From Microcaldota archaeon (GTDB lineage: Archaea; Micrarchaeota; Micrarchaeia; Burarchaeales; JACRGF01), in assembly GCA_016212395.1 (NCBI GenBank), contig JACRGF010000006.1, positions 1-41,442 of the forward strand: a stretch of 41,442 nucleotides of DNA, given 5' to 3'. The stretch's first letter is position 1; every line of letters starts with the position of its first letter. This document shows positions 11,662-40,162 of the stretch, one piece after another. A program made the position numbers and the translations under genes. The notes under the pieces are model-generated. The model did no database searches and was not told where the DNA came from. It worked only from the letters and a program-made list of their open reading frames with translations.

Positions 11662-11787
11662 TTGGACCTGTAGTTCTGATTCGAACGACAAATCGTTCGA
11701 ATTCACTACACGTCCTCTGCTTCGACTGTGGTCGAAGTCTGTCGCAAACCTCGTGGTTTGCTCCATCGCTTCGCTTGGACCTGTAGT
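11662..11787 (+). repeat. 13-bp direct repeat TTGGACCTGTAGT (11662-11674 and 11775-11787) bracketing an array of short perfect hairpins
   Basis: Hairpins: TTCGAACGA-CAAA-TCGTTCGAA (11680-11701), CTTCGAC-TGTG-GTCGAAG (11720-11737), GCAAACC-TCGT-GGTTTGC (11744-11761). GGACCTGTAGT also pairs, with one mismatch, with ACTACACGTCC. Confidence 0.75.
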
Positions 11788-11883
11788 CGAAAGTTTTATT
11801 GCTTTAACGGCATTAAAACCGATACTGGTTAAGACGCCACCCTTACAAGGTGGAGATTCGGTGTTCGATTCACCGCGGGTCCA
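11777..11883 (+). tRNA. tRNA-Val(TAC) with a 34-nt D-loop intron (11792-11825)
   Basis: Acceptor GGACCTG/CGGGTCC, anticodon arm CCACC-CTTACAA-GGTGG, T-arm CGGTG-TTCGATT-CACCG. Removing 11792-11825 gives a 73-nt tRNA with D-arm GTCGAATGGTTAAGAC. Confidence 0.85.
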
Positions 11884-13439: not shown

Positions 13440-13558
13440 AGCCCCGTCGTCTAGAGCCTTGAATGACAAATCATTCAAGATTTGTCTGCAAGGCAGACAA
13501 TGGTCAAGGATAGTGGGCTCTGGACCCATTGACATCGGTTCGAATCCGGTCGGGGCTA
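13440..13558 (+). tRNA. tRNA-Gln(CTG) with a 46-nt D-loop intron (13455-13500)
   Basis: Acceptor AGCCCCG/CGGGGCT, anticodon arm GTGGG-CTCTGGA-CCCAT, T-arm ATCGG-TTCGAAT-CCGGT. Intron removal yields D-arm GTCTAGTGGTCAAGGAT and a 73-nt tRNA. Confidence 0.9.
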
Positions 13559-35003: not shown

Positions 35004-38000
35004 ATGAGTGAAAAAAACTTTTCTCTCTTTTTTCTTGTCTGCCTGGTTTCGAGTTTGGCTGTCGCAGGACAGTTTTTTTCAATTTCCCTGCCTTCATGCG
35101 ACGACTACTGCGCGGGCAGCGTGAGCTACGCGAGCGGAAGCTACAACTCTGAAACAGGCGCCTGTTCTTACGCGTCAGCAACCCACTGCAGCAACGGGTG
35201 CGACGAGAGTGGAACAGCGTGCGCTCAAGGAACAACGGGAAGTGAAAGCACGCGCACGACAACTTCAACAACCACTGATTCAAGAGAAACAACTGAAACA
35301 GAAGGAACAGCGTCTGGTTCAACTGCTGATTCGAGCAGGACAACGACTGTTTCAACTGAAACTAATTCTTCAACATCTCGTTCAACTGATTCAAGCAGGA
35401 CAACGTCAACAACTGGAACCGGAGCGACAACGTCGGGTTCAACAACTTCCACGCGCTCGTGCCCCAACTACTGCGCTGACAACGCGCTTTACTCGCGCGG
35501 AACGTTCAATTCAGACTCGAACGAATGCGTTTATTCTTCCCGCACTGTTTGTGCTTACGGTTGCAATGCTGGAGGAACTACATGCGCTTCAACAGCTTCA
35601 GCAACTCCAACTGACTGTTCAGCTTACTGTGCAAACAAAAACTATTACGGCAGGGGAAGCTTCAACACTGCAACAGGAAAATGCGCTTACGCTGTTACGA
35701 TCGCGTGCGATTACGGTTGCAACGCTCAAGGAACAGACTGCGCGCCTGCAAGCAGAACTATTACAATAAATGAAACAACAACTTCAAACGCTTCTCGTTC
35801 AACAACCGTCACGTCAAACGCAACAGCAACAAATGCTTCTCGTGCAAATGCAACTTCAAACGCTTCACGCACGATTGCTTCGAACGCTTCAACAACTTCC
35901 TCTAACGCTTCACGCGCAATAATCGTTTCATCAAACGAAACAATTTCTTCCAATGCTTCTCGTGCAGTTTCAGCAACTTCTTCTAATGCTTCTGTTTCAA
36001 GAGCGTGCTTGGATTACTGTGCTGACGGGTTTTTCTATTCGAAAGGGAATTACAGCGCGCGCTTGAACGAGTGCGTTTACGGCAATCGTCTTGCGTGCGA
36101 GTTCGAGTGCGTTGAAAACGAAACTGTTTGCGCTGAAGAAACCGGAATGGGCGGGGCGCAGCCTGATTTTGAAGTGAAAAACGTTTCTGCAAAAAAACAA
36201 AAGTATCGCTTGGGAGAGAAAATAGAGGTTTTTGCGGATATAGAAGAAATGGAAAATGCCAAAGCGGTTCGCGAGTTTTCAGTGCAGTGGTTCATTAACT
36301 CGACGCCGTTCAAGGACGAACGGATGGCTAACTTCAGCAACAGGGAAAAGAGGAAAGCAAAGTTTGAGTTTACTCCGGAAAAGCCAGGTGTTTACAAGAT
36401 TGAAGTTTTTGCGGACAGCAAGAACGATTTTAATGAAAAAGCAGAGTCTAACAACAAGAACAGCGTTATTTTGAGCGTGCTTGAAGAATACGCTGAACTA
36501 GATTCTGACGAAGACGGCGTGAAAGACTTGCAGGACAAGTGCCAGCAGACTCCCGACGGCATTAAAGTGGACGAGAACGGATGTCCAGCGTGCAAGATTG
36601 ACTCGGATGGAAGCAATTATTTCGAGCAAGGCGCAGTCGGCTACTTTATTTGGGGAGAAGAAATAATGCCTGCAAACCCGAAAGAATACCCTGGAGGATT
36701 CAAAATAGCGTCCACGCTCGATTATGAAACTCCGTTCGAAGACGTTTGCTCTTACGACGGAAAATCAGTGTGGGAGTACTCATGCGACGTTGACGAAAAC
36801 GAGTGCGTTGACGTTGCTGGCAGCAGCGATTTTCTCTACTACCTCGCGTCAGGAAGCTTGAGTGAAGGCAAAAAATGGAAGCTGGAAGAAGCTTACTGCG
36901 TCATCCACCCTGCTACTCCAATTGAAGGCGGGAAAACTGTTTTGGAAAGCCACGCGTGCACGTGCGGTTGCGCGAACGGAGCGTGCAATGAAGAAATCGA
37001 TTCAGATAAGGACGGAACGTTTGATTGCAAAGATGATGATGACGACAACGACGGCGTTGCAGACAATAACGACAACTGCCTTCTGGCTGTGAACGCGAAC
37101 CAGCTTGACACTGACAATGACGGGAAAGGCAACGTGTGCGATGATGACGACGACAACGACGGGTGCGTTGATTCTGACGATGACTCGCCTCTAGTGAAAG
37201 GCCCTGACAAGGACAAGGACGGGATTGCGAATTTTTGCGACAACTGCTGGGAAGAAAAAAATGCATTGCAACAGGATTACGATGGCGACGAAGTGGGCGA
37301 CGTGTGCGACAACTGCCAGTTTACTTTCAACGACTTGCAGATAGACTCTGATGGAGATGATGTCGGCGACGCTTGCGACAACTGCAAGAATGCGAAGAAC
37401 GCAAACCAGAATGACAATGACAATGACGGGCTTGGAAACGCGTGCGACAATTGCCCTAATAATGTCAACGCAAACCAAGCGAATGTAGATAATGACGATG
37501 AAGGCGACGCGTGCGATTGCGACGACGTGCAGCAAGCAGGCTCTGAAACAGGAGTGGACTGCGGCGGAAGTTGCCAAGCGTGCGTTGCGTGCACATGGTG
37601 CGGAAACCAAGTGACTCCAATCCGCATTCGAGGTGATCCAAACACTAATGACAATCTAATCGACGTAGTGTTCGTTCCAGGCACTGAACTCAATGCTACG
37701 ATGAACGTTTACCAAACTCGCGTCATCAATGCAATCCGCTATTATTACTTGACGATGGACGAGCGCAGTGTAGACCCGATTCCTGCGAACTACAAGAACT
37801 TGTTCAACTTTTATTATTACAACGGAGGGTTCGGGCAAATGCCTCCTCCTTGCGCTGGAACGCTTCCAGCAAACTTTTGGGCTGACGCGCCGTTCGCAGA
37901 CACTGGCGCAATAATGACTGTAACGTGGACTGCATGCACGAACGTATTGTACCCCCCAAGCCATTTTTCCGCTCAAGCAAACATGGGCGACTTGATTATT

Positions 38001-39224
38001 CACGAGAGTGGCCATGGAATTTACGGGCTGAGGGACGAGTACTGCGGGAACACTGCTTACGGACAGCAGGCTGACGCTCCAAACATTTGGAGCAGCCTTG
38101 CAAACTGCCAGAACGACGCTGCAGGCGAGCCTGGCTGGAACTTGGGAAACTGCAGGCAGATTCAAGACGTGAACGCGCTCGGGCAAGTAACGTGCCAGAA
38201 AAACTATTGGAGGTACGATCCTGATGCTCCGACGAATTCTTACATGATTGCGTGCGGTGGAAACGGATGCCCCACTGTCGCACCAAACTCTAACTACCAG
38301 TTTTGGGAGGCTGAAGCAAGGCACGTGAACTGGGCGTACGACAACTGGCCTGTCGGAGACACTAAAGGATTTTTGGTTAAATTGAATTTGCGTGACGGAG
38401 TGATGACTGAGTTGAGTTCTCAAGTTGTTTCAAGCCATCCTAACGTCGGGTTGCAGGCAAGAGACTTTACAGTCGAATTGATTGCTGAAGACGGAACTCT
38501 CATGCAGTCTTTCGGAATGGCTGACCCGAGAATACAATTTGGTGAAGAAAGCGTTTACTACAACGAAATAGACTTTCCGTTGTTGTTCGCGTGGCATGAA
38601 GGCTTGCGGAAAGTCGATATTCTCAACAGTTCGACGAACGAGTTCGTGCTTTCAGTGGACTTGCTTAAAGCAATCAGCAGTTTCTGCGAGCAAAACCCTT
38701 CAGAGAAGGAATGCAGTGTGCACGTGGGAAGCGTTGACGTCGTAAACGTAAACCCCGGTGCTGCAACTGGCGGCGTTAGCGGAACAGTTTCAGTGAACAA
38801 CGCGCAAGTAGTGTTCACTCAAGTGAACGGGCAAGTGAATTTCGGAACAGAAGGAACGCAGGCAGTCATCATTCTCGTGAACAAAGAGAAAGGAAAAGCA
38901 ACAATAGAATCAAGCAACCAGACTGCTGAAACTAACGAAACGCTGAAAATAGATTCCGGCAACCTCTACGTGAACGGAAAGCAAGTGAAAGCAAGCCCGC
39001 ATTCTGCAGTTGCAAAAGCGAAAGAAAAAGAAGGCATTAGCGTGGAAAGCGTTGAATTATCAACTAAAAACAGCAAGCCTGCTTATACGATTACCGGAAA
39101 GAAAAACGTGAAAATCCTTGGAGTGCTCCCAACGACAACGCAAGCGAGAGTGCAAGTGAACGCTGAAACGAACGAAGTGGAAAAAGTTTCAAAACCATGG
39201 ATAGCCAACTTTGCAACAGATTAA
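35004..39224 (+). CDS. Large secreted surface protein: four Cys-rich modules, Ser/Thr/Asn-rich linkers, CARDB-like domain, thrombospondin type 3 repeats, HExxH metallopeptidase domain (M64-like)
   Basis: Signal peptide (FLVCLVSSLAVAGQF); four CxxYC...C...C..GC......C modules; DSDGDDVGDACDNC-type repeats; LIIHESGHGIYGLRDEYCG. Confidence 0.85.
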   Translation: MSEKNFSLFFLVCLVSSLAVAGQFFSISLPSCDDYCAGSVSYASGSYNSETGACSYASATHCSNGCDESGTACAQGTTGSESTRTTTSTTTDSRETTETEGTASGSTADSSRTTTVSTETNSSTSRSTDSSRTTSTTGTGATTSGSTTSTRSCPNYCADNALYSRGTFNSDSNECVYSSRTVCAYGCNAGGTTCASTASATPTDCSAYCANKNYYGRGSFNTATGKCAYAVTIACDYGCNAQGTDCAPASRTITINETTTSNASRSTTVTSNATATNASRANATSNASRTIASNASTTSSNASRAIIVSSNETISSNASRAVSATSSNASVSRACLDYCADGFFYSKGNYSARLNECVYGNRLACEFECVENETVCAEETGMGGAQPDFEVKNVSAKKQKYRLGEKIEVFADIEEMENAKAVREFSVQWFINSTPFKDERMANFSNREKRKAKFEFTPEKPGVYKIEVFADSKNDFNEKAESNNKNSVILSVLEEYAELDSDEDGVKDLQDKCQQTPDGIKVDENGCPACKIDSDGSNYFEQGAVGYFIWGEEIMPANPKEYPGGFKIASTLDYETPFEDVCSYDGKSVWEYSCDVDENECVDVAGSSDFLYYLASGSLSEGKKWKLEEAYCVIHPATPIEGGKTVLESHACTCGCANGACNEEIDSDKDGTFDCKDDDDDNDGVADNNDNCLLAVNANQLDTDNDGKGNVCDDDDDNDGCVDSDDDSPLVKGPDKDKDGIANFCDNCWEEKNALQQDYDGDEVGDVCDNCQFTFNDLQIDSDGDDVGDACDNCKNAKNANQNDNDNDGLGNACDNCPNNVNANQANVDNDDEGDACDCDDVQQAGSETGVDCGGSCQACVACTWCGNQVTPIRIRGDPNTNDNLIDVVFVPGTELNATMNVYQTRVINAIRYYYLTMDERSVDPIPANYKNLFNFYYYNGGFGQMPPPCAGTLPANFWADAPFADTGAIMTVTWTACTNVLYPPSHFSAQANMGDLIIHESGHGIYGLRDEYCGNTAYGQQADAPNIWSSLANCQNDAAGEPGWNLGNCRQIQDVNALGQVTCQKNYWRYDPDAPTNSYMIACGGNGCPTVAPNSNYQFWEAEARHVNWAYDNWPVGDTKGFLVKLNLRDGVMTELSSQVVSSHPNVGLQARDFTVELIAEDGTLMQSFGMADPRIQFGEESVYYNEIDFPLLFAWHEGLRKVDILNSSTNEFVLSVDLLKAISSFCEQNPSEKECSVHVGSVDVVNVNPGAATGGVSGTVSVNNAQVVFTQVNGQVNFGTEGTQAVIILVNKEKGKATIESSNQTAETNETLKIDSGNLYVNGKQVKASPHSAVAKAKEKEGISVESVELSTKNSKPAYTITGKKNVKILGVLPTTTQARVQVNAETNEVEKVSKPWIANFATD

Positions 39225-39282: not shown

Positions 39283-39489
39283 TAGCCCCGAGCGGATTTG
39301 CGAGTCTCCAGTTCCCAGTTTTGAGTCCTGAAGGTTTTTCGAACCGCTGTCAATGGGTTTCCTTCCCGTGAGGTGCGGTTCTTTTTTCTTTTCTTTTTCC
39401 GCACCCTGCGCTTTTTCTTTTCTTTTCAGCGAGAAAAGAAAAAGGGCGGGCCCAAAGCCCACTATCCTTGGCCACTAGACGACGGGGCT
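39283..39489 (-). tRNA. tRNA-Gln(TTG) with a 93-nt anticodon-loop intron (39359-39451) and a ~41-nt insertion in the T-loop (within 39296-39339)
   Basis: Acceptor AGCCCCG/CGGGGCT, D-arm GTCTAGTGGCCAAGGAT, anticodon stem GTGGG/CCCAT with TTG anticodon, T-stem AGCGG/CCGCT with loop TTCGA...AT split by the insertion. Confidence 0.85.
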
Positions 39490-39640: not shown

Positions 39641-40162
39641 GTGAGCGGTTTTGCAACTGCCCGCGCTCGCGTGTTCAACCGTGCTGGAAACGGTGGAGCG
39701 CAATTGTTTGATTTGGAGAAAAGGCGTTTTGAAAAGTTGTTTGAAAAAACTGAAGTGTTTGCGGAGAGGCTGAAGGACAAGCATTGGTTCACGCGCGTGA
39801 GCGGGTTGAATGGATTGTTTTTGTCCGGGAAAGCTGAAGCGTTCCCGTTCCTATTGAAATCGCTTAAAGACAACGACTCGCGCGTCAGCACTGAAGCGTT
39901 TTACCTCGTGCTCGAGTTTTTGAAGGAGAAAGGAAGCGTGCCGTTGATTTACTCTTTGAACGACGAGTGCAATTTTGTTCGTTTTGCTTCAGCGTTTTTG
40001 CTTGGAAAAAAAGCAGGCGGCAGCGCTGTTGAAGCGCTTCAAGCAAGGCTTCAAAAGGAGGAAGACGCGAGAGTGAAAATCGCTCTCTTGTTGGCGCTCC
40101 AGCAATGCATTCGCGCGCGTTACGACGAAGAATGCAAGAGAGGCGAAAAATTGTCCGCGTAA
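39641..40162 (+). CDS. HEAT-repeat protein, 173 aa
   Basis: DKHWFTRVSGLNGLFLSGKAEAFPFLLKSLKDNDSRVSTEAFYLVLEFL... Confidence 0.6.
   Translation: MSGFATARARVFNRAGNGGAQLFDLEKRRFEKLFEKTEVFAERLKDKHWFTRVSGLNGLFLSGKAEAFPFLLKSLKDNDSRVSTEAFYLVLEFLKEKGSVPLIYSLNDECNFVRFASAFLLGKKAGGSAVEALQARLQKEEDARVKIALLLALQQCIRARYDEECKRGEKLSA

Follow-up and report, generated by a model that had tools for sequence, protein, structure and literature searches.

A tRNA-Gln(TTG) gene with two predicted introns and a T-loop splice motif in a Micrarchaeota genome

Introduction

The closest described parallels to the locus considered here come from the Thermoproteales, whose tRNAs contain non-canonical and multiple introns of the bulge-helix-bulge (BHB) type (Sugahara 2008; Fujishima 2010; reviewed in PMC4090602, PMC4033280, PMC8450103). 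The tRNA genes of this order carry 0.84 introns each on average, and Pyrobaculum calidifontis has 71 in 46 genes; a survey of 217 archaeal genomes classed almost 70% of tRNA introns as canonical (PMC8450103). A second group of parallels is presented by ARMAN-1 and ARMAN-2, members of a related lineage with an epsilon2 EndA, relaxed splice motifs and several introns per tRNA (PMC4033280, PMC12397907); enzymes of this type reportedly cut relaxed motifs (PMC6379350, PMC12397907). The permuted tRNAs of Thermofilum pendens, the only archaeal ones in the literature examined, are joined at the T-loop position 59/60 (PMC3218864, PMC3978253), and in the Asgard groups Atabeyarchaeia and Freyarchaeia 92-95% of tRNA genes have introns, often at non-canonical sites (PMC11291895).

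Here we describe a tRNA-Gln(TTG) gene on a contig of a Micrarchaeota archaeon (JACRGF010000006.1, assembly GCA_016212395.1), the analysed stretch of 41,442 nucleotides being referred to below as the window, together with the remaining tRNAs of the genome. The original prediction, made from the sequence by eye, had read the gene as split by two introns and had noted that multi-intron tRNAs are known in some Crenarchaeota; they are documented in the Thermoproteales (PMC4090602, PMC4033280, PMC8450103). Like that group, this genome has many intron positions including 59/60, several introns per gene and similar introns in different tRNAs, there read as transposition; it differs in belonging to another phylum, the Thermoproteales having an (alpha-beta)2 endonuclease. 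Whereas the canonical site dominates in the survey of 217 genomes (PMC8450103), more of the introns found in this genome lie at 59/60 than at any other site. For ARMAN-1 and ARMAN-2 the papers examined describe neither a lead of 59/60 nor the shared hairpin family (PMC4033280, PMC12397907); the Gln(TTG) gene is linear, unlike the T. pendens genes, with only tRNA-Gly(TCC) looking permuted in this genome, and the Asgard groups are an unrelated lineage. Each of these features, 59/60 introns, multi-intron tRNAs, intron transposition and the epsilon2 EndA, is already known (PMC4090602, PMC4033280, PMC8450103). Less expected are the lead of 59/60, an intron family almost restricted to tRNA genes, a permuted-looking tRNA-Gly and an rtcB gene that apparently contains an intron; in the literature searched, with most subscription papers outside the search, we found neither 59/60 as a leading site nor this hairpin intron family in Micrarchaeota.

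Results and discussion

Anatomy of the tRNA-Gln(TTG) gene

The gene occupies 39283..39489 on the minus strand and is flanked by two plus-strand ORFs, of which one ends at 39224 and the other starts at 39641. It has three exons that together form a cloverleaf: exon 1 (39452..39489, 38 nt, tRNA positions 1-37) provides the 5' acceptor strand AGCCCCG, the D arm and the anticodon stem and loop GTGGG-CTTTGG with the anticodon TTG; exon 2 (39338..39358, 21 nt, positions 38-59) runs from A-CCCAT, with the 3' strand of the anticodon stem, through the T-stem strand AGCGG to the T-loop sequence TTCGAA; exon 3 (39283..39296, 14 nt, positions 60-73) supplies the final T of the loop, CCGCT, CGGGGCT and the discriminator A. 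They are separated by a 93-nt intron at 37/38 (39359..39451) and a 41-nt intron at 59/60 within the T-loop (39297..39337). The acceptor stem is paired at 7/7 positions and the T-stem, spanning the 41-nt insert, at 5/5, and removal of both introns yields a standard 73-nt tRNA. The coordinates and hand-drawn pairings that had been proposed all proved right.

Neither ARAGORN at default settings nor Rfam, when run on the window, recovered the gene, as is expected given its two introns; weak microRNA matches that fall on the intron hairpin are meaningless here. In our intron-tolerant cloverleaf search it scored 35.66, a value of 35 being reached by none of 1380 order-1 shuffled segments (best shuffle 34.1). 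As this margin is small, the comparative evidence given below is the stronger proof.

The first intron is flanked by a canonical BHB as originally drawn: CTTT/AAGG forms the 4-bp central helix and CCCG/CGGG the inner helix, and each splice site lies in a 3-nt bulge (GG^G and AA^A). Under unconstrained folding the minimum-energy structure of the precursor lacks this BHB (designed structure -57.3 versus -77.2 kcal/mol for the minimum) and the anticodon stem has a probability of about 0.06. In sequence, this intron is similar to those of tRNA-Asp and tRNA-Phe (z 9-10). We also observed that in it, as well as in the introns of tRNA-Asp, Phe, Leu(CAG) and His (L007, L008, L029 and L023), the first hairpin has a purine strand that recurs later in the intron, e.g. 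AAAAGAAAGAAAA, leaving the pyrimidine strand with two possible partners.

Gln tRNAs in related genomes

An intact, intron-free Gln(TTG) in the relative G002 is identical to the spliced sequence at 66 of 73 bases, which upholds the assembly of the exons into a two-intron tRNA-Gln(TTG). Further intact copies are present in G006, G007, G014, G015, G016 and G018, while G013 has the 37/38 intron only and G004 is interrupted at both sites, as here (introns of 72 and 99 nt). Among the Gln(CTG) genes, those of G005 and G008 have both introns and that of G001 just the one in the T-loop. These patterns show that the junctions are real and that the introns were gained or lost along different lineages.

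The same comparisons bear on the question of whether the gene works. It might be a decayed copy, in which the 37/38 intron is genuine and the T-loop insert mere damage, as the one mismatch in the T-loop central helix could suggest; but the acceptor and T-stems are perfect, the double interruption recurs in G004 and 59/60 is interrupted in 16 other tRNAs of the genome, making decay very unlikely. An intact Gln(TTG) elsewhere in the genome, named at the outset as the finding that would speak for decay, was sought with anticodon-arm and 5'-exon searches, and no second copy was found in the roughly 89% complete assembly. We give still less credence to an error of assembly at the T-loop: the assembly is a draft split into 67 contigs, but 59/60 is interrupted in eight other, separately assembled genomes. 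Judged from its sequence, then, the Gln(TTG) locus is very probably a working single-copy gene with two BHB introns to be spliced out.

A splice motif within the T-loop

For the second intron the original prediction could draw no convincing BHB. Its best helix, TTCG (39343-39340) with CGCA (39302-39299), was right: 3 of 4 pairs form, with a T55-C mismatch, between bulges AA^A and AA^T. What did not stand is the absence of a BHB, as a relaxed form with the T-stem as its outer helix is recognizable and all four central pairs form in 34 of 47 comparable inserts; the Gln insert is among the weaker copies of the motif, and the central helix of the G004 Gln(TTG) T-loop likewise has 3/4 pairs. A 6-bp hairpin, CTTCAG/CTGGAG, lies inside the Gln T-loop intron, set back by several bases.

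The general form of the motif is as follows: the T-stem serves as outer helix, and TTCR (54-57) pairs as central helix with YGAR, the four intron bases directly before the last three bases of the loop, leaving 3-nt bulges and a cut at 59/60. The 47 inserts comprise 14 from this genome and 33 from eight relatives (G001, G004, G005, G006, G008, G016, G019 and G020). The 34 complete helices compare with 2.7% expected from 4-mers within the same inserts, and 20,000 random draws gave at most 8. As the cloverleaf script assigned no score to the TTCR/YGAR helix, the search did not select for it and the count is an independent test. Further, there is covariation between base 57 and the base paired with it (A-T 22, G-C 15, A-C 3, G-T 2; Fisher p 9e-7, a generous value as the sequences are related and not independent). 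By these counts and this covariation, the TTCR/YGAR bulge-helix-bulge at 59/60 is taken to be real.

Since the T-stem is able to close across the insert, and the T-arm fold is stable, one might suppose that the insert is retained in the mature tRNA as an enlarged, unspliced T-loop. The T-loop must contact the D-loop, however; the inserts differ in length (25 to 163 nt) although the tRNAs are otherwise standard, their junctions are placed so that splicing gives back a normal 7-nt loop, the intron end covaries with base 57, and intact orthologues exist. Retention is accordingly a reading with next to no probability, and we return to removal of the insert by splicing.

We infer that the Gln(TTG) gene is expressed and that its precursor would be cut at both 37/38 and 59/60 by the epsilon2-type EndA, with RtcB then predicted to join the exons. 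In the T-loop, TTCR would give one strand of the 4-bp central helix and the intron would supply YGAR just before the 3' bulge. As nearly every tRNA has TTCR at this place, an intron with a fixed 3' end could settle in almost any of them. This near-universality would account for the lead of 59/60 among the intron sites found in the genome, and would offer a simple explanation, in structural terms, of how the T-loop can become a hot spot for introns.

EndA and RtcB

EndA is encoded on the minus strand at L015:1192-2370 as a protein of 392 aa, residues 4-392 of which align end to end with the ARMAN-2 EndA (PDB 4fz2; 389 residues, E 2e-138). A three-unit chain of about 390 aa alignable along its full length with the ARMAN-2 enzyme places it in the epsilon2 type. 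The catalytic and substrate-holding residues of ARMAN-2 EndA have been named in structural work (PMC12397907). Of these, the residues compared (Y236, H251, K282, Y160, K161, R275 and W384) are all conserved: the protein of this genome has the catalytic Y235, H250 and K281, the ASL residues Y159 and K160, and the bulge-holding R274 and W389. Of 20 relatives examined, 18 have EndA whole or in two adjacent frames and G003 has a fragment, while none was found in G008. The guess of an ARMAN-type EndA in the original prediction is thus borne out by a full-length gene, with broad specificity predicted from its type.

RtcB is also encoded in the genome. Its gene (L249; G000:C24, minus strand) has, at ~1515-1551, a 31-nt insert between GGVGY and DINCG, without which it is a single frame of 506 residues. 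The insert site folds as a BHB (central helix GGTT/GACT, inner helix CGAA/TTCG, -20.3 kcal/mol). In many relatives rtcB is uninterrupted; in some, a long insert that keeps the reading frame lies close to this position and is probably an intein. The 31-nt insert is an apparent intron by its sequence and fold; if real, the mRNA of the ligase would itself need splicing.

tRNA census

The prolyl-tRNA synthetase of the genome has its closest matches among Micrarchaeota records, at 51% identity for the best. The census was drawn from targeted stretches of the 1.37 Mb draft assembly (67 contigs, 89% complete) by hand and by script; it is incomplete, biased towards detectable tRNAs and perhaps favours some intron positions. 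It comprises at least 33 tRNA genes covering all 20 amino acids, 30 of them with introns: the exceptions are Lys(TTT) and Val(GAC), both uninterrupted, and Gly(TCC), which looks permuted. Among the 33 genes found the load is about 1.1 introns per gene. The original prediction held that a T-loop intron without a clear BHB would be unusual, but T-loop introns are common in the lineage: 17 of the 37 introns are at 59/60, with 14 in the anticodon loop and six in the D arm. Two introns each are found in seven genes (Gln-TTG, Tyr, Asn, Ile-TAT, Thr-TGT, Glu-CTC and Val-CAC), the T-loop motif of Glu-CTC being poor. The sole copies found for His, Asn and Tyr all carry T-loop introns, which implies that the cell is capable of splicing these. 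The Rfam tRNA model at its default cut-off recovers 14 of these at least 33 tRNAs, and general tRNA models thus overlook many tRNAs in such genomes. Two further tRNAs in the window, both on the plus strand and recovered by the intron-tolerant search, have D-arm introns: tRNA-Val(TAC) at 11777..11882 (intron ~34 nt) and the other Gln tRNA, Gln(CTG), at 13440..13558 (~47 nt).

In tRNA-Gly(TCC) (L020; G000:C38, ~1470-1567) the 3' half lies just before the 5' half and the two are joined at 59/60, in the order TGAA-AAT-CCCGG-CGACCGC-A, a short spacer, and GCGGTTG...CCGGG-TTCA-AAT. No 3' half was found within 1.5 kb downstream, and a linear reading with introns of up to 600 nt permitted failed. From this arrangement the gene looks circularly permuted. 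Its acceptor pair 5-68 is T-A, that of the neighbouring Gly(GCC) being C-G, and the Gly(TCC) of G001 is linear with a 95-nt T-loop intron.

Intron families and their possible spread

A hairpin, CTTTTCTTTCTTTTC..GAAAAGAAAGAAAAG, has six exact copies in the assembly, 6/6 of them within tRNA introns, and the search with it also uncovered tRNA-Thr(TGT), Cys, Glu(CTC) and Val(CAC). A related hairpin has 29 copies over six genomes: by script 21 lie in tRNA introns, 19 of the 21 in the T-loop, and among the remaining eight several have a tRNA-like context by eye and one is found just downstream of an intact tRNA. T-loop introns are also shared between different tRNAs, namely Ser(CGA)/Leu(GAG) (z 20) and Ala(TGC)/Asn (z 14); the 41-nt Gln T-loop intron is not a member of the shared hairpin family. 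Occurrence almost only in tRNA genes would be the pattern left by transposition of tRNA introns.

This leads to a broader proposal, for and against which we see even chances: several Micrarchaeota lineages may carry mobile tRNA introns that use the universal T-loop TTCR as half of their splice motif and could enter nearly any tRNA, the burden having grown until nearly all tRNAs, and even the rtcB mRNA, need splicing. In the genome described here, a lineage with another endonuclease type shows a spread of tRNA introns on the scale of the Thermoproteales, which bears on the joint evolution of endonuclease type and intron load.

Other features

At several tRNA genes (L010, L018, L022, L026 and L279) we observed that the opening 11-15 bases of the tRNA are repeated just upstream of the gene; after most of these copies come a palindrome, e.g. 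ATTAGAACG..CGTTCTAAT, and a sequence partly complementary to the start of the tRNA. Among the protein genes of the window are those for an ankyrin-repeat protein (201-1154) and for a protein of 1406 aa that matches CARDB and thrombospondin type 3 (35004-39224), both possibly surface or interaction proteins.
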